Shown here: one piece after another, positions 22,906-33,543 of the stretch
Position numbering within the stretch: the first letter of the stretch is position 1
How the letters are laid out: each line of letters begins with the position of its first letter
DNA from: Alphaproteobacteria bacterium
Lineage (GTDB): Bacteria; Pseudomonadota; Alphaproteobacteria; SMXP01
Direction of reading: 5' to 3'
Assembly (NCBI GenBank): GCA_021774915.1
Contig: JAJFIO010000136.1
Span: 1 to 38,773 of the forward strand
Length of the DNA: 38,773 nt
Notes under the pieces: model-generated
What the model saw: the letters and a program-made list of their open reading frames with translations, nothing else
Told to the model about the DNA's origin: nothing
Database searches by the model: none
Program-made: the position numbers and the translations under genes

Positions 22906-23121
22906 GCCTCAACCTCCATTGGCCAAGGGAATGTATTCAGCCATAGGTTTTCACAATATCATTCAATATGCAGTGCATTTTGTTGACAATCAATGGCTAT
23001 ATTACTTAACAATCTAATGGACAAAATGAAAAACTGGGGCCTCATTTCTGAGGCGCCAATGCATTATACGAGGCATCACGTCACAGCTGATGCTCCAACA
23101 AGACAGATTTTGGTGAAGTCT
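22906..23121. promoter_or_regulatory. Divergent promoter region, uraH operon / puuE operon
   Basis: About 215 bp separating the two purine operons. It contains TTGTTGACAATCAA around 22979-22993, with a TTGA-N3-TCAA dyad. TTGACA reads as a -35 element toward puuE and the opposite strand reads TTGTCA toward uraH. No clear -10 element can be assigned. No riboswitch fold was recognised. Confidence 0.45.
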
Positions 23122-24045
23122 ATGCCCTCTTCCTATCCTCGCGACATGATCGGATATGGCCAAACCCCGCCAGACCCACGCTGGCCGGGCGGGGCGAGAC
23201 TCGCGCTTCAGGTCGTCCTCAATGTCGAAGAGGGATCTGAGAATTGCGTACTCCATGGCGATCCAGGCGCGGAAACTTTCCTCTCAGAGATCATCAATGC
23301 CGCCCCGGTGCCAGGCGCGCGTCATATGAGCATGGAATCGCTTTACGAATACGGCTCCCGGGTGGGGGTCTGGCGGCTTCTTGGGCTTTTTCGTAAACAT
23401 CAGATCCCTGTGACCCTTTTCGCCGTCGCCATGGCATTGAGCCGCAACCGGGCGGTGGCGGAAGCGGCCCTGAAAGACGGCCATGAAATCTGCTCCCATG
23501 GTTATCGCTGGATCAATTATCAGGATGTGGACATAGAGACCGAACGCGCTCATATGAACCAAGCCATCGCCCTGCACCAGAAGATAACAGGGTTCAGGCC
23601 GCTGGGCTGGTATACCGGCCGCACCAGCCCCAACACCCGCCGCCTTGTGATGGAAGAAGGGGGCTTTTTGTATGATGCCGACGACTACAGTGACGATCTG
23701 CCCTTCTGGGTCAGCAACAACGACAAACCCCATCTGGTGATCCCCTACACGCTTGACGCCAACGATATGCGTTTTGCTACACCGCAAGGATTTAACTGCG
23801 GTGATCAGTTTTTCACCTATCTGAAAGACACCTTTGACGTGCTCTATGATGAAGGCAAAACACATCCCAAAATGATGTCCGTCGGACTTCATTGCCGGCT
23901 TGCTGGCCGTCCAGGGAGAATTGCTGCGCTTGATCGCTTTTTCTCCTACGCCAAACAATTCAGTGATGTATGGATCTGCCGGCGCGTGGACATTGCCCGG
24001 CATTGGCGCAGCCAGCATCCCATGACCAATGCAGGCCCGTCATGA
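23122..24045 (+). CDS. puuE: Allantoinase PuuE (polysaccharide-deacetylase fold)
   Basis: Hydrolyses allantoin to allantoate. The NodB-like fold shows the PuuE-specific opening YPRDMIGYGQTPPDPRWPGG, then LNVEEGSENCVLHGD, MSMESLYEYGSRVGVWR, GHEICSHGYRW and GWYTGRTSPNTRRL. The track ORF starts at 22993, but known PuuE proteins are about 308 residues and begin at this YPRD segment. ATG 23122, with GGTGAAG upstream, gives 307 residues, and the DNA before it looks like promoter. It is unrelated to the metal-dependent AllB allantoinase. Its stop overlaps the uraD start (ATGA). Confidence 0.93.
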   Translation: MPSSYPRDMIGYGQTPPDPRWPGGARLALQVVLNVEEGSENCVLHGDPGAETFLSEIINAAPVPGARHMSMESLYEYGSRVGVWRLLGLFRKHQIPVTLFAVAMALSRNRAVAEAALKDGHEICSHGYRWINYQDVDIETERAHMNQAIALHQKITGFRPLGWYTGRTSPNTRRLVMEEGGFLYDADDYSDDLPFWVSNNDKPHLVIPYTLDANDMRFATPQGFNCGDQFFTYLKDTFDVLYDEGKTHPKMMSVGLHCRLAGRPGRIAALDRFFSYAKQFSDVWICRRVDIARHWRSQHPMTNAGPS

Positions 24046-24596
24046 ATGAAAAGGTGACGCTTCCTCTCCGGAACAAACCGAGCAGTTTAAGCAAGGCCGC
24101 GTTCCTGAAAATTTATGGAGGGATCTATGAAAATTCGCCCTGGGTGGCTGAAACACTCTGGCGCACCGTAGCCCATAGCGAGATCGATACAGCGGAAGGC
24201 TTCGCCCAGGCCGCACAGTCTATCGTCGATCATGCAAGTGAAAGCAATAAATACGCGCTGATCCGTGCGCACCCCGATTTGGCGAGTCGGGCGACCACAA
24301 CGAACACTCTGACCCGTTCTTCTGCGCTGGAACAATCATCCGCAGGACTTGATCAATGCAGCGCCGAAGAATTTAAGCATTTCCAAACACTCAATGCCGC
24401 CTACAAAGAAAAGCTCAGCTTTCCCTTTATCCTGGCCGTCAAAAACTTGCAGAGATCAGAAATTCTGGAATTGTTTTCCCGGCGGCTTGAGAATACCGCA
24501 AGTCAAGAATTCCAAACCGCCATGTCGGAAATTCACAAAATCGCTTACCTGCGCCTGACCGCACTTGCTTGCGATCAAGACGAAACCAACACCTGA
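24042..24596 (+). CDS. uraD: OHCU decarboxylase
   Basis: Decarboxylates 2-oxo-4-hydroxy-4-carboxy-5-ureidoimidazoline to (S)-allantoin. The track ORF begins at 23970 inside puuE, but ATG 24042 overlapping the puuE stop is the natural start, giving 184 residues. Motifs are IYENSPWVAE, the signature RAHPDLASR with the catalytic His, SAEEFKHFQTLNAAYKEKL and FPFILAVK, and the C-terminal EIHKIAYLRL. It follows UraH in the pathway and lies between allantoinase and allantoicase genes. Confidence 0.94.
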   Translation: MNEKVTLPLRNKPSSLSKAAFLKIYGGIYENSPWVAETLWRTVAHSEIDTAEGFAQAAQSIVDHASESNKYALIRAHPDLASRATTTNTLTRSSALEQSSAGLDQCSAEEFKHFQTLNAAYKEKLSFPFILAVKNLQRSEILELFSRRLENTASQEFQTAMSEIHKIAYLRLTALACDQDETNT

Positions 24597-24608
24597 TGAA
24601 AAACCATT

Positions 24609-25598
24609 ATGAGTAATATCATTAACACCAAATGGATTGACCTGGCACAACCACGATTAGGCGCACAGGTTGTTTTTGCAACAGATGATTTTTTTGCCCC
24701 TAAAGAGCGCCTTATTCTTTCCCAAGAACCTGTTTTCATCCCCGATAAATATGATGATCATGGTAAGTGGATGGATGGCTGGGAAAGCCGCCGTCGCCGG
24801 GACGGCGGTTATGATTATTGCATCATCCGGCTAGGTCATCGCGGACAAATAAACAGCATTGACATCGACACACGACACTTTACGGGAAACTTCCCCTCTT
24901 CCGCATCTATTGATGCCTGTCAATGCGATGATATTATTCCTGGTACGGATGCCTCATGGATCCAAATTACCCCACAAAAAGAACTTCAGGGAAACCGCCA
25001 CAATATAGTGACCGCCCAGAGTGACCAGGCCTTCACGCATGTTCGCCTGAACATCTTCCCCGACGGCGGAGTGGCGCGGCTGCGTGTGTACGGCCAAATC
25101 GATATGGACTGGTCTTCAGCGAACCCGGCAGAAACGATCGACTTGGTTGCTCTTGAAAACGGTGGCCGCCCTATTGCCGCAAATGACGAACATTTTGGCA
25201 GACTGGAAAACATCATCGCGCCCGGTCGCGCGACAAACATGGGTGACGGCTGGGAAACCCGGCGGCGCCGGGAACCCGGCAATGATTGGGGCATAATAGA
25301 ACTCGGGCACATTGGTTCTGTTCAAAAGATCCTTATCGACACACAACACTTCAAAGGAAATTACCCTGATTCCTGCTCCCTTCAGGCAAGCTCGGACACA
25401 ATCACGCAAATCGAGGATATAGAGACACACTCCTTGTCCTGGCCCACTCTGCTGCCAGAGCAAAAATTATCAATGGATCAAGAACATATTTTTGAATCCG
25501 AAATCATTTCCCATGACCCCATTCGCCTGATCCGCATCAATATTCTGCCCGATGGCGGCATTGCGCGTTTGCGACTTTATGGCTTCATCAAGCCGTAA
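24609..25598 (+). CDS. alc: Allantoicase
   Basis: Hydrolyses allantoate to ureidoglycolate and urea. The 329 residues form two internally homologous domains. WMDGWESRRRRDGGYDYCII / DTRHFTGNFP in the first matches GDGWETRRRREPGNDWGII / DTQHFKGNYP in the second, and each domain ends in an INILPDGGIARLRLYG-like strand. It lies 12 bp after uraD and is followed by a terminator-like hairpin. With AllA, it completes the allantoicase-ureidoglycolate lyase branch, which yields urea rather than ammonia. Confidence 0.96.
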   Translation: MSNIINTKWIDLAQPRLGAQVVFATDDFFAPKERLILSQEPVFIPDKYDDHGKWMDGWESRRRRDGGYDYCIIRLGHRGQINSIDIDTRHFTGNFPSSASIDACQCDDIIPGTDASWIQITPQKELQGNRHNIVTAQSDQAFTHVRLNIFPDGGVARLRVYGQIDMDWSSANPAETIDLVALENGGRPIAANDEHFGRLENIIAPGRATNMGDGWETRRRREPGNDWGIIELGHIGSVQKILIDTQHFKGNYPDSCSLQASSDTITQIEDIETHSLSWPTLLPEQKLSMDQEHIFESEIISHDPIRLIRINILPDGGIARLRLYGFIKP

Positions 25599-26721: not shown

Positions 26722-27159
26722 CTATGCGCTATGATCTGTCAAACAGTGCGCGTGCGAATGGTCGGCCAACACCTCAATGATACGGCAAGCGCCAATACGT
26801 CCGCCTTTGCATTGCTTGACCATGCGTTCTAGTTCACTTTTTAATGATGTAAGCCGAGCGATCTTTTCCACCACTTCGCTTAAATGAGATTTGGCTACCC
26901 GGTCAACGGTTTCACAAGGCTGATCCGGGTCATCGCTCAATACTAACAACTCGCGAATGGCGTCGAGAGAAAACCCTAACTCACGACTATGCCGAATAAA
27001 GGAGAGCCGCTTTACATGCACTTTATCATAAACCCTTTGATTTCCTGCCGTGCGTGGCGGCTCTGGCAGCAAACCAATCTGTTCGTAATACCGAATTGTC
27101 TGGACTTTGCATCCGGCATCCCTGGCAAGACGACCAATTGAAATATCTCGCAATGTCAC
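26722..27159 (-). CDS. MerR-family metal-responsive regulator (CadR/PbrR/ZntR-like)
   Basis: 145 residues. The N-terminal winged helix has ISIGRLARDAGCKVQTIRYYEQIGLL and the NQRVY segment, then a dimerisation coiled coil, then a metal-binding tail. Cysteines are in QPCETVD and in CKGGRIGACRIIE (C-x7-C), and the tail ends in the His/Cys-rich HSHAHC. This points to a divalent ion (Cd, Pb, Zn or Co) rather than Cu(I). The start is GTG with AGAGGA eight bases upstream. It is divergent from the CDF-like transporter and presumably controls it through the 19-bp-spacer promoter between them. The exact metal is inferred only to class. Confidence 0.9.
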   Translation of the reverse strand: MTLRDISIGRLARDAGCKVQTIRYYEQIGLLPEPPRTAGNQRVYDKVHVKRLSFIRHSRELGFSLDAIRELLVLSDDPDQPCETVDRVAKSHLSEVVEKIARLTSLKSELERMVKQCKGGRIGACRIIEVLADHSHAHCLTDHSA

Positions 27160-27171
27160 CGTATTTTCCTC

Positions 27172-27202
27172 TTGAACCTATAGTGACTGTAGATATTAGA
27201 CT
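27172..27202 (+). promoter_or_regulatory. MerR-type promoter/operator for the CDF transporter
   Basis: TTGAAC and TAGACT are separated by 19 bp, the overlong spacer typical of MerR-activated promoters. The spacer contains the dyad CTATAG-TGA-CTGTAG, close to known metal-MerR operators. It lies between the divergent regulator and transporter genes. Confidence 0.8.
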
Positions 27203-27234
27203 TAAGCTTCTTGAATACAAGGGAAGTGGAAAAA

Positions 27235-27873
27235 ATGTCTGGATGCGGTACTTGCGAAGTTAAATTCGAAGGCAATTCACGAGATTTTCGACGGGTGTTG
27301 TGGATCGTCATCGCCATTAACGGATTGATGTTTGTGGTTGAGATGATGGCCGGTGTTGCGTCGCAGTCGAAGTCTTTGCAGGCAGATGCCCTAGATTTTA
27401 TTGGAGATACAGCGACCTACGCCATCAGTCTTTACGTCGTCGGTCGCGCACTAAAGGTGCGCGCTACCGCGGCAATGATTAAAGGGTTCGCCCTCGCCGC
27501 CCTGGGCCTATGGGTGTTGGGATCGACTATTTATCGCGTATTTTACATAGGCATTCCCGATGCCGCGATGATGGGCATTGTTGGCGTCCTCGCCTTTGCA
27601 GCCAATGCCATCAGTGCGCTCTTGCTCCTGCGTTTCCGGGATGGAGATTCTAATGTCCGTTCTGTTTGGCTGTGCAGCCGCAATGATGCGATTGGTAACC
27701 TTGCAGTTATCCTTGCCGCCAGCGGCGTTTGGTCTTTAAAGACTGGCTGGCCGGATCTCATTGTCGCTGGTATAATGGCCAGTCTATTCCTTCACTCTGC
27801 GACTCGAATCCTCCGTCAGGCTTGGGGGGAGATTCAATCTGATAGCATTGATGTGAAGATTAAAACAACATGA
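27235..27873 (+). CDS. Short CDF-like cation transporter
   Basis: Predicted inner-membrane divalent metal exporter of 212 residues with about five or six hydrophobic segments. The cation-diffusion-facilitator pattern is visible: MFVVEMMAGVASQSKSLQADALDFIGD with the Asp pair of the transport site, and SVWLCSRNDAIGN as the second site. A cytosolic N-terminal CGTC may bind metal. It is short for a CDF, lacking the large cytoplasmic C-terminal domain. ATG 27235 with GGAAGTGGA upstream is preferred to the track start at 27211. It is regulated by the divergent MerR protein and followed by a DUF302 gene. Confidence 0.85.
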   Translation: MSGCGTCEVKFEGNSRDFRRVLWIVIAINGLMFVVEMMAGVASQSKSLQADALDFIGDTATYAISLYVVGRALKVRATAAMIKGFALAALGLWVLGSTIYRVFYIGIPDAAMMGIVGVLAFAANAISALLLLRFRDGDSNVRSVWLCSRNDAIGNLAVILAASGVWSLKTGWPDLIVAGIMASLFLHSATRILRQAWGEIQSDSIDVKIKTT

Positions 27874-27916
27874 CCGTAAAGCACTTTCACACATCATCCC
27901 TGCATGAGGCACTATC

Positions 27917-28300
27917 ATGACATATCACTTTTCAAAAACGGTACAAGGCGATTATAATGCAATTGTTGACTTAGTCACCGCCGCATTAAAAACGCAGGGC
28001 TTTGGCATTCTCACCGATATCGATGTGGCGGCAACATTGAAGAAGAAACTTGATGTTGATATCCGCAAATACCGAATTTTAGGAGCATGCAATCCACAAC
28101 TGGCTTACCAGGCCCTTCAAGTAGAAGATAAGATAGGCACCATGCTTCCATGTAATGTGATCGTTCAGGAAAGCGATGCAGGCATAGAGGTCTCCGCTGT
28201 CGATCCAGCGGCTTCCATGCAGGCGGTGGACAATCCAAAACTCAAAGAAGTCGCCCAAAACGTACGTGTCAAGATGAAGGCCGTGATTGACACCCTTTGA
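27917..28300 (+). CDS. DUF302 domain protein
   Basis: 127 residues, a single DUF302 domain: YHFSKTVQGDYNAIVDLVTAALKTQGFGILT at the start, the RILGACNPQLAYQAL motif and MLPCNVIVQE. No signal peptide is visible. GAGG lies nine bases before the ATG, 43 bp after the transporter. The biochemical role of DUF302 proteins is not settled; family members often accompany metal or redox genes. Co-regulation with the transporter is inferred. Confidence 0.88.
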   Translation: MTYHFSKTVQGDYNAIVDLVTAALKTQGFGILTDIDVAATLKKKLDVDIRKYRILGACNPQLAYQALQVEDKIGTMLPCNVIVQESDAGIEVSAVDPAASMQAVDNPKLKEVAQNVRVKMKAVIDTL

Positions 28301-28556: not shown

Positions 28557-29756
28557 TTAGAAATTAAGTTGGCCGCGGAATTGTAGTGCCTCTGGCTCTT
28601 CATTAAGCCCCAGAGAATTCGGAGCGGCATCAATGAATATATAGTTCGCCATAAGACGGAAGTTCCTGCCGAGATACCAGTTAGCGCCGATTGTCCAGTT
28701 TTCCTGGATACCGCCCAGAAGAGGCCCGTCCGTAAGATCGAATCGGCTCCAGCGGGCCGCCACTTCCACAGCGCCTAAAATACCGCGGGGCTTAACGCTG
28801 CGGAACGTTCCATTCCTCTTGCTATACCGGCGCGACTCTCCCGTGATAAACCAGCTTGCCTGAATATAACCACCACCAACATCGGCGTTACTGCTCGCGG
28901 TCCGGTTAATCATGGAGTGCATATATTCGCCCTGAAGGGAGAACGGCCCCATCACCACGGCGCTTTCAACGCCATACGATATCGTATCGTCAACATCCAG
29001 CAAGGTGCCCGTGGTGAGCAAACGAGCATTTGCAATACCCACCTCAGGATACGTTCGAATACGGAAACCCTTATCGTCGCGAACCTCTTCATACTTCAAA
29101 GAGGCGCCTACTTGCACAAAGAGACGTTTTTTCTTTATCGGCGCGAAGGTCACACGGCTGGAAATATTCTTGCCTTTGTTTTTCGCATTCTCACCAGTGC
29201 CAATCGCATCTCCGAATACGCCGATAGCGGCTGTCCAGGATTTTCCATACGTGGCGAACTTGACGCCCACACCGTACCGCGCATTCAAGGCGTTTGGTAA
29301 GGCGCGCTCCATAAATGTCAGATTATTTGAACTACCGACATTCTCAAGACCGAAAGGTGGGATTTGATTTCCGGCGGTAATATTCGAATTACCCCAACCG
29401 GAATATCGCAGCCAGACATTTTTCCATCCTTTTGATGTACCACCAACATCCCGATCTACTTTTATTTTCCAATCGCCAAACTTTACCGATCCATAGACGC
29501 GGGCGCGCCGCACCTTGGTGGTGTCGTTAAAAGGCGTGATATCGGAGTCGAAATCCACCGTATCAAGATGAAGGCGACCGCCGATCCTGAATTCGATATT
29601 TTCGTCTTCGCTTTCATAGACCAAACCTTTTTTGCCAAATTCTACGTCCCCAGCGAGCGCCGGAGAGACGCTTCCAGCAAAAGCCACGGCAAGTGCTACA
29701 ATCATTCTCGAATGTTTCATGACATCTTCCATCAATTTATTATATAAAGTTTTCAT
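28557..29756 (-). CDS. OprO/OprP-like outer-membrane porin
   Basis: About 399 residues with a signal peptide (MKHSRMIVALAVAFAGSVSPALA within the first 35). The mature region is rich in alternating beta-strands: FRIGGRLHLDTVDFD, VRRARVYGSVKFGDWKIKVD, WLRYSGW, NQIPPFGLENVGSSN and a final QFRGQLNF ending in Phe. These fit the phosphate-selective porin O/P family. The track ORF starts at 29786, but ATG 29756 has GGAGAGGGG upstream and is preferred; 29720 is another option. It is the last gene of an operon with a P-loop protein, ABC exporter and hydrolase. Family members are not all phosphate-specific, so the solute is unknown. Confidence 0.87.
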   Translation of the reverse strand: MKTLYNKLMEDVMKHSRMIVALAVAFAGSVSPALAGDVEFGKKGLVYESEDENIEFRIGGRLHLDTVDFDSDITPFNDTTKVRRARVYGSVKFGDWKIKVDRDVGGTSKGWKNVWLRYSGWGNSNITAGNQIPPFGLENVGSSNNLTFMERALPNALNARYGVGVKFATYGKSWTAAIGVFGDAIGTGENAKNKGKNISSRVTFAPIKKKRLFVQVGASLKYEEVRDDKGFRIRTYPEVGIANARLLTTGTLLDVDDTISYGVESAVVMGPFSLQGEYMHSMINRTASSNADVGGGYIQASWFITGESRRYSKRNGTFRSVKPRGILGAVEVAARWSRFDLTDGPLLGGIQENWTIGANWYLGRNFRLMANYIFIDAAPNSLGLNEEPEALQFRGQLNF

Positions 29757-29795
29757 TGTTTCCCCTCTCCAACTGGTCAACCTCATGGGACAGCT

Positions 29796-30659
29796 CTAGC
29801 TCCCCTTGCATTTTTCTGACTCGAATAGAAACTCAAATACTCTTTCCCCAACATTTCCGTCGACCATGCACTTCTTGAACGAATGTCCGACACCTGGAAT
29901 CTCTATGAGCCGGGATTTTTGCTCCATGCCCATTTCATTGGCGCAATTATTCATCGCAGTGACCCACCGCCTGGCCCGTTCAACCCTCGTATCTCCCTGA
30001 ACAGAGCAAATCTCTGTCGACTGGTTCAGGCTCTTATCCCGCTTGGTATCGAGCGTTCCGACAAGGGCCAAAAACCGGATTTTTAGAAATTCTGCCACAC
30101 CAAAGTTGATATCTTCTAAATCACCCGATTTGCCAATTCCCAGTGGATAGGCCCGTGCGGGATCAGGAAAGGTATACCAGCCGGCTGCCGCAACCGCCGC
30201 CGCGGCAACTCTGTCGGGATATGCCATAGCATATCGGTGTACAAACTGGCCGCCGCCGGAAAAACCAAAAAAATGGAGTTTACTACTTGTTAAACCCAAG
30301 CGATCAGTCAACTCCGTCAGGATCTGATCCAGAAAGTGATCAGCACGGTTGAGTTTATCTCTACACAATAACTGTTGGTAACCCCGGTATAATCTCGTCG
30401 AAAAAATTGGAGCAACAAGAACAGCGCCATACTTATCTGCCCACGGAGCTAAATGAATCATATGCTCTAGAGGATTTCGGGTGATGCCATGCACGGTAAT
30501 GATGATGGGAGAATCAGGCCCAAAGCTGGATGGCAAACGCACGAAACAATCGGGTCGTGACCGTCCCTCAGTCGAGAAAGAATAGATTTTTTTCTGCACG
30601 ATACGCGTAGCATTAAGAACTATAACGGGTGAGCTTTCCTTGATTACACCGAGGTTCAT
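29796..30659 (-). CDS. Alpha/beta hydrolase, PHB-depolymerase/esterase-like
   Basis: 287 residues. ITVHGITRN forms the oxyanion loop, FGFSGGGQFVHRYAM the nucleophile elbow with Ser, LVGTLDTKRD a likely acidic residue and GVGHSFKKCM the catalytic His. The arrangement resembles the PHB depolymerase/feruloyl esterase-like group. No signal peptide is evident, so it probably acts in the cytoplasm. Its ATG overlaps the ABC transporter stop by four bases, which indicates translational coupling. The substrate is unknown; an ester made or moved by the neighbouring proteins is possible. Confidence 0.82.
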   Translation of the reverse strand: MNLGVIKESSPVIVLNATRIVQKKIYSFSTEGRSRPDCFVRLPSSFGPDSPIIITVHGITRNPLEHMIHLAPWADKYGAVLVAPIFSTRLYRGYQQLLCRDKLNRADHFLDQILTELTDRLGLTSSKLHFFGFSGGGQFVHRYAMAYPDRVAAAAVAAAGWYTFPDPARAYPLGIGKSGDLEDINFGVAEFLKIRFLALVGTLDTKRDKSLNQSTEICSVQGDTRVERARRWVTAMNNCANEMGMEQKSRLIEIPGVGHSFKKCMVDGNVGERVFEFLFESEKCKGS

Positions 30660-32359
30660 ATCCGGCTCCCCCCATTTTCTTGTCCGCCAACGCGATCCAC
30701 TTTTACTGGCTTGGTAGGCGTGCGGTTTTCAATTAGCATCAATGGCTGATGATCGAGGTGCCAGATTTCATCAGCGTGATCGATAAATTCTTGGTCATGA
30801 GTAATTAGAAGGACGGTGCCGTCATAAGAAGAGAGAATCTGCGCAAGCTTTGTTTTCGCACCAGTATCGAGATTGGCGTCTGCTTCGTCCAAGAGTAATA
30901 TTTTGGGCGCACCCAGCAAGGCCCGTGCTAAGGAGAGACGCTGCCGTTCCCCCAGCGATAAATTAAGGCCACGCTCTGTTAGCCTGGTTTGATCCCCCTG
31001 GGGAAGTTTAGAAAGTATTTCGTCTACGCCGGTGATTTGGCAAACATGGTTTATTTCTTCTTCAGAAGCGCCGGGATGTCGGTAACACAGATTCTTTCTG
31101 ATGGATCCACGCAAAAGAGGAACGTCAGGACTCATAATACCAATAGCGCGCAGCAGCGAACTGCGCCGAATGCTGCGCACGTCAACGCCGTCCAGCATGA
31201 TCTTACCCTTTTCAGGTTCAATCAGACGCATCACAAGCCCAAAAAGTGTTGATTTGCCGGAACCGTTGGGCCCAACAATCGCTATTTTCCTACCTGGCTG
31301 AGCGATGGCGCCGAATTTGTCTAAAGCGCCCGGAACCGTGACCTGTTGAAATTCGATGCGCTGAGCGCTTCGTCTCAGGCGCTTGGTTTGCTGTTTGCGT
31401 CGAGTCATGTGCGGCAGCGCCAATATTTCAGAAATTTTCTGCTGAGAGACACGGGCGCTATGCCAATATTCGTATACCCGGCCAAAATGGCGAAGCGGCA
31501 TGAGCAGCAATCCGACGATGCTCATCGCCGCAACTACTGTGCCTGGTGATGCGTTTCCCGTAGATACTTGCGCGACGCCCAGCAACAATGTTCCGGCCGA
31601 CGCGAGGCCGATCGTACCTTGTGTGACACCGCGCAAGGCTCCAATGAGGCGGGCGCGTTGCACCATGGCCTTTTGCAGACGCTTACTCTGCTTACCAATC
31701 CGGCCAACTTCTCGTGAGCGCTGGCGGTGTACCTGTACCGTGGTCATAGCGCTGAGCTTTTCGGTTACGTTATTCGCCAGATAGGTGCGGGTCTTACGCG
31801 CCTCCCTTACAGCCGCTTCCACTGGCTTGCCGAGCACCAACGAAACAACCCCGCCCAAGGTGACCACGGCGCTTACCATAAGCGCCAATTGCCAGTTGAT
31901 AAAAAACAAGGCTAAAAGCGTTCCCGTTATTCCCACACCTGCAACAATAAGTCTCGCCAATCCCAAACTTACCCATTGCCGCAAGGCGGTCAAATCACTC
32001 ACAAACCGCAGCATGACGCCCCCTTGCGCACGCGAGGCGCGCACACGGGGACTGACTTTAGCCAAGTGGTTAAAAAGTCTCAGGCGTAAACGGTGAACGA
32101 AATCCTGCCCCAGCCGCTCGCTTTGCACGCGTTCGTCAAAACGCAGCCAAGCTCCAAACAATCCGGCAGTGATGAGCCCAGCACCAAGCAGGGTGAGGCC
32201 GTCCGCAACGGCAGCGCCGTCACTGACGATAAAGCCATCGAAAATTCTTTGAATAAAGATAACCGTGACGATATTAGATGCTGCCTGTCCCAAGCCATTG
32301 CCAACCAAGCGCGCCGCAGCAACCTTCCGTTGCTTCAAGAAGTCAAAAAAAAGGTTCAA
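30656..32359 (-). CDS. ABC exporter half-transporter (fused permease-ATPase)
   Basis: 567 residues. The N-terminal membrane domain (about 1-310) has about six hydrophobic segments, and the C-terminal ATPase has Walker A VGPNGSGKST, signature LSLGERQRLS, Walker B ILLLDEAD, D-loop NLD and switch His in LLITHDQ. The Q-loop reads IMSPDVPLLRGS, where the usual Gln appears to be Pro, and the signature is LSLGE rather than LSGGQ. It would work as a homodimer. The start is TTG within TTGA, overlapping the P-loop gene stop. The substrate is unknown; with an outer-membrane porin in the operon, export of a small molecule or peptide is plausible. Confidence 0.9.
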   Translation of the reverse strand: MNLFFDFLKQRKVAAARLVGNGLGQAASNIVTVIFIQRIFDGFIVSDGAAVADGLTLLGAGLITAGLFGAWLRFDERVQSERLGQDFVHRLRLRLFNHLAKVSPRVRASRAQGGVMLRFVSDLTALRQWVSLGLARLIVAGVGITGTLLALFFINWQLALMVSAVVTLGGVVSLVLGKPVEAAVREARKTRTYLANNVTEKLSAMTTVQVHRQRSREVGRIGKQSKRLQKAMVQRARLIGALRGVTQGTIGLASAGTLLLGVAQVSTGNASPGTVVAAMSIVGLLLMPLRHFGRVYEYWHSARVSQQKISEILALPHMTRRKQQTKRLRRSAQRIEFQQVTVPGALDKFGAIAQPGRKIAIVGPNGSGKSTLFGLVMRLIEPEKGKIMLDGVDVRSIRRSSLLRAIGIMSPDVPLLRGSIRKNLCYRHPGASEEEINHVCQITGVDEILSKLPQGDQTRLTERGLNLSLGERQRLSLARALLGAPKILLLDEADANLDTGAKTKLAQILSSYDGTVLLITHDQEFIDHADEIWHLDHQPLMLIENRTPTKPVKVDRVGGQENGGSRI

Positions 32360-33543
32360 AATCTGTCACCTAAAACTCGTAGCGCAGGCGTACAAATCTT
32401 AGGCACGAGATTACCAATTTTCTCCGGGTTCGCGAGAGATCTTATATTGAGAACCGGCAAACCAGTTGCCTCTTCTGTGGCTTGTACTCCAACACGCGAT
32501 TCAGTAACCCGTCCGCTGATCGCAGTAGCCGGAAGGGAGAAGCGCTCCAGCCATTCGACCGCGGCCTTTGCCCCCATGGTATCGCCTGAAGAAATGACAA
32601 CGCTGTTCACAATATTCTTGAAGAGCGGCAAGCACATCACCGCAGAGGTTTCCTTTTGGAGTATTCCATCCGCCACCTCGATGACAATTGCATCCGGCTT
32701 TGCCGCTTGCAGATTACCAATGAGCGAAGAAAATATTCGCTCAAGATCTTCCATAGAGATACGGTGAGTCGAAGGAAACCCGGCGTCAACAAAATCATAT
32801 ACGGTAGTGGCGCCCGCGTCGCACATTTCCAAATAATCCCCGCAAGCGCCGGTACCCGTCACCTTCGCTGCAGCGACACCAAACCCGGCTCTGTGCAAAC
32901 CTTTGATGATATGAGCCACCGTGGTCGTTTTCCCGGCGTCCATTTCCGTACCGGCAACAGCAATAACAAGATTAGGCGCATCACAATTGGCTGGACGAAA
33001 CGGGAGAGACCAATCGGCCAGATTGATCGGCCGCCCCCCCGAATCTCCAATAAGACCAAGGGGTTCGATTTCCGTCGCTTTTTTCATCCGGGTATGACTT
33101 GAAGTGACTGTGGCCGCCAGCCCGCCGGACGCCACCAGATTACACCGCTTAAGAGAACGCGGAACAATCGCTTCAAACTGCTTTGCGGCATATCTGTTGC
33201 CATAGCAAACGACGACTTCATCGCCTTTATACAATCGGGCGCGCCGCCCTTCTTGTGTTTGAAGCCGTGTATGCTGACCAATAGTAGTAATCCGTGCCAA
33301 GACCAGGTCTCCCACGGACGGTGAAACCTTTCCCGTAAGGAGACTAACCATAGCCTCAGATGGTATACGGCGCGTGTTGAAGGAGAATTTTGCCGCTGCC
33401 ATACGTTCTCGGCTTAGCAGATTGGATAGAATTTTGGTTACATTTTCTTCTTGAGGAAGTCTGGAAAAGACGTCCTGCGATGATCGAATCTGTTCCATTG
33501 GCATATAAACCCAGCTTACGATTGCTGGTACTCTCTCTTGCAA
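32356..33543 (-). CDS. P-loop protein with BioD/MobB/DUF1611-like NTPase domain
   Basis: 395 residues. The N-terminal half (to about 170) is beta-rich and unassigned (VGDLVLARITTIG, KGDEVVVCYGNRYAA). The C-terminal half is a P-loop domain with VAGTEMDAGKTTT, VTGTGACGDYLEMCDAGA, IVIEVADGI and VVISSGDTMGAKAAVEWL. It resembles the SIMIBI-type group containing dethiobiotin synthetase, MobB and DUF1611 proteins, but I cannot place it in a named family. Start choices are TTG 33543 or ATG 33504. It is the first gene of the four-gene operon and overlaps the ABC exporter gene (TTGA). Some DUF1611 proteins are reported as N-acetyltransferases for D-glutamate; whether that applies here is unknown. Confidence 0.7.
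   Translation of the reverse strand: MQERVPAIVSWVYMPMEQIRSSQDVFSRLPQEENVTKILSNLLSRERMAAAKFSFNTRRIPSEAMVSLLTGKVSPSVGDLVLARITTIGQHTRLQTQEGRRARLYKGDEVVVCYGNRYAAKQFEAIVPRSLKRCNLVASGGLAATVTSSHTRMKKATEIEPLGLIGDSGGRPINLADWSLPFRPANCDAPNLVIAVAGTEMDAGKTTTVAHIIKGLHRAGFGVAAAKVTGTGACGDYLEMCDAGATTVYDFVDAGFPSTHRISMEDLERIFSSLIGNLQAAKPDAIVIEVADGILQKETSAVMCLPLFKNIVNSVVISSGDTMGAKAAVEWLERFSLPATAISGRVTESRVGVQATEEATGLPVLNIRSLANPEKIGNLVPKICTPALRVLGDRF

Follow-up and report, generated by a model that had tools for sequence, protein, structure and literature searches.

A conserved four-gene operon that may modify and export an acidic amino-acid-like molecule

DgcN, a member of the DUF1611 family, is a D-glutamate N-acetyltransferase that contains a P-loop. 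A nucleotide-binding fold of the kind described below is found in dethiobiotin synthetase (BioD) and the SIMIBI/CbiA-type enzymes, while MsbA, CydDC and type I secretion-like exporters are half-transporters built from an ABC_membrane and an ABC_tran domain, and OprP and OprO are phosphate and polyphosphate porins. PahZ1, the studied relative of the hydrolase considered here, cleaves beta-aspartyl amide bonds (PMC4456602). In the window, the whole stretch of 38,773 nucleotides that was analysed, four genes stand next to each other on the minus strand: a P-loop protein (32356..33543, 395 aa, TTG start), an MsbA/LssB-like half exporter (30656..32359, 567 aa), an alpha/beta hydrolase of the PahZ1/LpqC family (29796..30659, 287 aa), and an OprO/P-type porin (28557..29756, the longest ORF extending to 29786). 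The strand and coordinates agree with those of the initial annotation, and the junction sequences confirm the spacing it described. The P-loop and ABC genes overlap by four bases, TTGA TTTTGAACC, the ABC and hydrolase genes by another four, ATGA GATATGAACC, and the porin ATG at 29756, preceded by a good Shine-Dalgarno sequence GGAGAGGGGAAACAATG, lies 39 bp past the hydrolase stop. The porin is likely to start at 29756 or at 29720, with a signal peptide. The TTG start of the P-loop gene may lie some 14 codons upstream of the true one, which is probably at about codon 14-16, because residues 1-38 are of low confidence in the AlphaFold2 model.

GTDB genomes were scanned with an 11-member P-loop alignment, and at least 582 stretches encode relatives, the best 80 of which were retained on the basis of the P-loop sequence alone. 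Gene sets were counted in the window and in the 55 of these loci for which the DNA downstream extends over 5.5 kb or more, 56 loci in all. The ABC, hydrolase, and porin genes occur together on the same strand in 25/56 loci, three of which also contain an Asp/Asn hydroxylase gene. The ABC and hydrolase genes are present in 35/56, ten of these without a porin; the remaining loci have partial sets, and 4/56 have none of the partners. The recurring order on one strand is P-loop, ABC, hydrolase, and porin across proteobacterial classes, with reduced forms elsewhere. The full set is found in Gammaproteobacteria, Nitrosomonas, Methylomonas, and Alphaproteobacteria, and thus spans the Alpha-, Beta-, and Gammaproteobacteria. 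Loci from Desulfobacterota (Desulfuromonadales), and some others, are without the porin, the cyanobacterial loci combine the P-loop and ABC genes with an OprB-type porin (PF04966) and no hydrolase, and Rhodobacterales plasmids show a different order (hydrolase, P-loop, ABC). The distribution of the family is sparse, with 19/385 genomes in the class sample and 5/399 in the phylum sample. Since the same order and strand recur in loci selected only by their P-loop protein, the four-gene arrangement is far beyond chance, and the constancy of this order among distant bacterial relatives makes it very likely that the four genes work as a single machine. The expectation that the genes are a set, staying together in other genomes, is therefore borne out. 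The set is indeed kept in alphaproteobacteria, where its conservation was to be sought, but it is not their speciality. No description of the four-gene set was found in the open-access literature, in line with the initial annotation, which knew of no such system. What had been an isolated observation thus becomes a cross-class conserved gene set.

The P-loop protein consists of an N-terminal beta-rich domain (residues about 39-180) and a BioD/SIMIBI-like nucleotide-binding domain (about 190-390). Its AlphaFold2 model, based on 61 homologs, has a mean pLDDT of 90, and the top Foldseek match is dethiobiotin synthetase 3of5 (E 8e-7, TM (target) 0.63), followed by SRP GTPases, HypB, and ParF. The N-terminal domain has no counterpart among the Foldseek matches, and a viral fold library gave no useful match for the protein. 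The likeness to BioD and the SIMIBI/CbiA-type enzymes lies in the fold of the nucleotide-binding half, where the P-loop can be aligned together with the Lys-x-TGT strand that follows it. In contrast to BioD, the protein has an extra N-terminal domain of about 140 residues and different conserved acid motifs (DxGA, DFxDxG, ExADG). Conserved across the 61 homologs are GTxMxAGKT, K227, D236, D242, DF250-251, E289, and ADG291-293. The protein falls far under the BioD family cut-off; the BioD equivalog TIGR00347 does not match the window protein and matches only 2/61 homologs weakly (best E 3e-4). All Pfam matches (CbiA, DUF1611, MobB) are subthreshold and NCBIfam provides no name. Judged by its sequence, the P-loop protein is outside every named family at curated cut-offs, in keeping with the initial annotation, which recognized no named family.

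RefSeq calls some relatives "DUF1611 domain-containing", and a weak P-loop similarity to DUF1611/DgcN does exist, but the N-terminal domains are unlike. Membership of DUF1611 (PF07755) was rejected, with 18.1 bits against a gathering score of 25 and an E value of 1.3e-4 at best over the 61 homologs, as was homology over the length, with an hhalign probability of 1% and E 0.055 in a comparison with 13 true members of DUF1611. A phage origin, suggested by a "Bacteriophage sp." match (L013, MT835675.1), was likewise discarded: the scaffold carries two-component and glycosyltransferase-like genes, and its gene content appears by eye to be typical of an actinobacterial chromosome. The operon shows no PADLOC system marker that would make it a defence system; the anti-phage markers matched nothing but the ABC domain, as a generic ATPase. 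On a Priestia megaterium plasmid (L010:4781-13469), a distant P-loop homolog is contained in a phosphonate-type biosynthetic cluster with a PEP mutase, ThDP enzyme subunits, two ATP-grasp ligases, and a carbamoyltransferase. An isoaspartyl-peptidase-like gene adjoins the P-loop homologs in two genomes (G004 and G240).

The possible activity of the family is illustrated by a divergent clade located in arginine operons. This clade belongs to the same family as the main one (hhalign probability 100, E 4e-68), but it is only about 25-30% identical to it, and its activity may therefore differ. The P-loop gene stands directly before argC, overlapping or abutting it, in 10/10 loci examined, all from one alphaproteobacterial order. 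In G320 (L134) the operon comprises an M20 peptidase, the P-loop gene, argC, argB, argD, and argF, with argG two genes on; the same position immediately before argC in ArgJ-less alphaproteobacteria is seen at L131, L133, L141, and L170-L179. In the six genomes checked with this arrangement, argC is present, ArgJ is absent, and no ArgA lies above the cut-off, the weak ArgA matches covering the kinase part only and falling at the adjacent argB. Among the comparison genomes, eight have ArgJ and two without ArgJ are also without a confident argC; in the comparison, a confident argC is always accompanied by ArgJ. In the order sample, ArgJ was found in 0/55 genomes and the P-loop gene in 12/55. The fold of ArgJ and ArgA is unrelated to that of the P-loop proteins, of which the divergent clade takes the position of these enzymes in arginine operons that have neither. 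Because it precedes argC in genomes without ArgJ and ArgA, this clade is a candidate that probably replaces N-acetylglutamate synthase, and the arrangement points to amino-acid N-modification. In an order without ArgJ, it would be a candidate for the step that opens arginine synthesis and is otherwise missing.

The window ABC protein matches PF00664 (4e-29) and PF00005 (3e-27) in Pfam. Its Walker A and B motifs, signature, and H-loop are intact, with the Q-loop Gln replaced by Pro. ABC_membrane together with ABC_tran bearing Walker A, signature, and Walker B is found in 63 intact homologs, and among these the Q-loop residue is Pro in 51/63 and Gln in none. Most exporters of the family keep an intact nucleotide-binding domain (NBD). 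Walker A and the signature are gone in Rhodobacterales, Vibrio hepatarius, sphingomonads, an actinobacterial scaffold, and others. Three Novosphingobium loci and one MAG lack the ATPase domain altogether. At L089, L091, L109, and L096 the exporter is the membrane domain alone, still followed by hydrolase and porin. Decay or loss of the ATPase domain amounts to at least seven independent changes on a P-loop tree that was obtained by a quick search and has some long branches, and for which a few loci were assigned their states manually, according to their motifs. Thus, in contrast to the MsbA, CydDC, and type I secretion-like exporters that they resemble, the operon exporters have a replaced Q-loop Gln and have lost the NBD in several lineages; furthermore, the conserved set contains no HlyD-type adaptor. 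The exporter family agrees with the export across the inner membrane that was suggested at first, but because at least seven independent lineages have a degenerate ATPase domain or none, export driven by the ABC ATPase is not essential everywhere and cannot be universal. We are dealing with an ABC exporter family that tolerates the loss of its motor domain.

The hydrolase has only subthreshold Abhydrolase matches in Pfam. Its AlphaFold2 model (pLDDT 91) matches the poly(aspartic acid) hydrolase PahZ1 (9o7u) with a Foldseek E value of 1.8e-20, and a profile comparison with 9o7u gives 4.8e-42. In the Foldseek search, the PahZ1 and LpqC matches are better than those of any other family by about 8-10 orders of magnitude. 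The triad Ser134-Asp204-His259 is conserved. Judging from the modeled fold and the triad, the hydrolase is of the PahZ1/LpqC type, and it shares with these proteins the QFVHR, GWYT-PD, and QG-R-R motifs; it differs from PahZ1 in being only about 25% identical and in its location in a conserved operon. The ester cleavage initially proposed is better described as the action of a PahZ1/LpqC-type hydrolase, with a studied relative that cuts beta-aspartyl amide bonds. The substrate on which PahZ1-type hydrolases have been studied is a synthetic polymer, and this operon may be a context in which they act in nature. The window hydrolase has no clear signal peptide, and by a crude hydropathy rule 19/76 operon hydrolases have a signal-like N-terminus, several of them false. 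A universally periplasmic hydrolase was therefore rejected, as most, including that of the window, are without such an N-terminus. The porin matches PF07396 (E 9e-61, 206.6 bits against a gathering score of 20.9) across nearly its full length, as do OprP and OprO. In contrast to these, it accompanies the four-gene set and not phosphate genes; it is predicted to prefer anions. None of the observations suggests a role for phosphate, whose limitation the initial annotation had proposed as an expression test.

Several further genes recur as accessory neighbors. In alphaproteobacteria these are an ECF sigma factor, an anti-sigma factor, and an S8 subtilase; others are two-component systems, DUF5666 and DUF6502 proteins, and an Asp/Asn beta-hydroxylase (AspH, PF05118) that adjoins the operon in about ten loci. 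Some loci are thus associated with envelope-sensing regulators, either the ECF sigma/anti-sigma/S8 subtilase group or a PepSY-like protein with a two-component system. A sensory module in which a small PepSY protein is encoded beside a two-component system has been described (PMC12714742). The neighbor in Vibrio hepatarius and in G254 is a small exported PepSY-like protein with a poly-Asp end, PepSY_2 being above the Pfam cut-off only in a G254 paralogue. Small exported poly-Asp or Asp-rich proteins, several of them PepSY-like, are encoded at L168:6965-7381, L163:5214-7023, L013:10935-11546, and L009:6480-6932, and at L163 two such proteins flank a gene resembling a TIGR02466-type oxygenase. 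The sole GAY6 run of the window genome (L162:957-1577, G000:C235) codes for a portion of the poly-Asp tail that a c-type cytochrome carries. Poly-Asp runs show no apparent genome-wide enrichment in P-loop genomes, only local proximity in some lineages.

We tentatively propose that this conserved accessory operon makes or tailors, and exports, a small, probably acidic, amino-acid-like molecule. The BioD-fold P-loop enzyme would modify an amino group of the molecule in the cytosol, by N-acylation or N-carboxylation, using a nucleotide triphosphate. The PahZ1/LpqC-type hydrolase, apparently cytosolic in most species, including that of the window, and with a signal-like N-terminus in a minority, may cleave this molecule at an amide or ester bond. 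According to their families, the MsbA-like exporter would then carry it over the inner membrane, and the OprO/P-type porin, predicted to prefer anions and replaced by OprB in cyanobacteria, would pass it through the outer membrane. The acidic-amino-acid theme arises from the PahZ1-type hydrolase and the Asp/Asn beta-hydroxylase and isoaspartyl-peptidase-like neighbors; on the strength of such neighbors the substrate is probably acidic. The decay of the exporter ATPase, the missing porin in Desulfuromonadales and others, and the missing hydrolase in cyanobacteria are points against modification and export, as is the finding that DUF1611/DgcN, an N-acetyltransferase family with a P-loop, is not detectably the family of the P-loop protein. 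A broader proposal, which we regard as somewhat unlikely, is that the P-loop proteins constitute a new class of nucleotide-dependent enzymes that N-modify amino acids. One clade would be an unrecognized N-acetyl(acyl)glutamate synthase in the arginine pathway, and the main clade, together with exporters that have repeatedly discarded their ATPase, would form a system not yet described that modifies and exports conjugates of acidic amino acids.

The loss of the exporter ATPase raises the question of another role for the P-loop protein. ArsA serves as the ATPase motor or regulator of the membrane protein ArsB, and the P-loop protein might similarly be a nonenzymatic motor or regulator of the membrane domain, which would account for the dispensable ABC ATPase. 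Its SIMIBI-like fold, the direct coupling of its gene to the ABC gene in most loci, and an intact P-loop where the NBD is degenerate or missing are consistent with such a function. However, the homologs that lack any ABC gene and stand beside argC or an isoaspartyl-peptidase-like gene, and the one in the Priestia cluster, fit an enzyme; most exporters retain their NBD, and among the relatives of ABC exporters, SbmA and BacA have no NBD and are driven by protons. We therefore consider a motor improbable. The acidic proteins encoded nearby raise a different, similarly improbable idea, namely that the operon modifies these Asp/Glu-rich exported proteins and helps to secrete them, with Asp residues or stretches of poly-Asp as the targets of AspH and the PahZ1-type hydrolase. 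In several lineages the P-loop gene has a neighbor that encodes a secreted protein with a poly-Asp or D/E-rich tract: the sole GAY6 run of the 4.8 Mb Vibrio hepatarius genome lies about 0.4 kb from it, every run in a 211 kb Paracoccus albus plasmid lies within 4 kb of it, an acidic-tract protein is encoded within 0.2 kb in G254, another is encoded next to the gene on an actinobacterial scaffold, and nearly all associated S8 subtilases contain an acidic stretch. Conversely, GAY6 runs are common (55/96 alphaproteobacterial genomes) and often far from the P-loop gene, the window and many core loci have no acidic exported protein, and the tracts may merely bind cations for sensing.

Cation binding would also suit a metallophore or metal-stress operon, in which a small beta-hydroxyaspartate or amino-acid chelator is made, exported, and later hydrolysed, freeing the metal. 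We find this quite unlikely, since the conserved set has neither a TonB receptor nor a recognizable metallophore synthase, despite the AspH neighbors, the PepSY/two-component and acidic neighbors, and a hydrolase fold that also resembles, though far more weakly, the siderophore hydrolase EstB. The MerR and CDF genes near the operon in the window would agree with a metal function, but they are not conserved with it. The sparse accessory distribution and the envelope-stress-type regulators could indicate detoxification or overflow export instead, with the set N-acylating and expelling a harmful amine or amino acid and having no dedicated product. This appears very unlikely, as the strict gene order suggests a dedicated path and the hydrolase might reverse the modification.

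As for the surroundings of the modify-and-export operon in the window, a YbjN-family exported protein (PF10722, 33743-34219), unconserved at other loci, is encoded about 200 bp upstream of the P-loop gene on the same strand. At the porin end, 26722-28300 encodes the MerR regulator, the CDF cation-efflux protein, and a DUF302 protein, with no co-conservation with the operon. Farther on, 22993-25598 contains probable ureide-degradation genes, recognized by eye as allantoinase PuuE-like, OHCU decarboxylase-like, and allantoicase-like.
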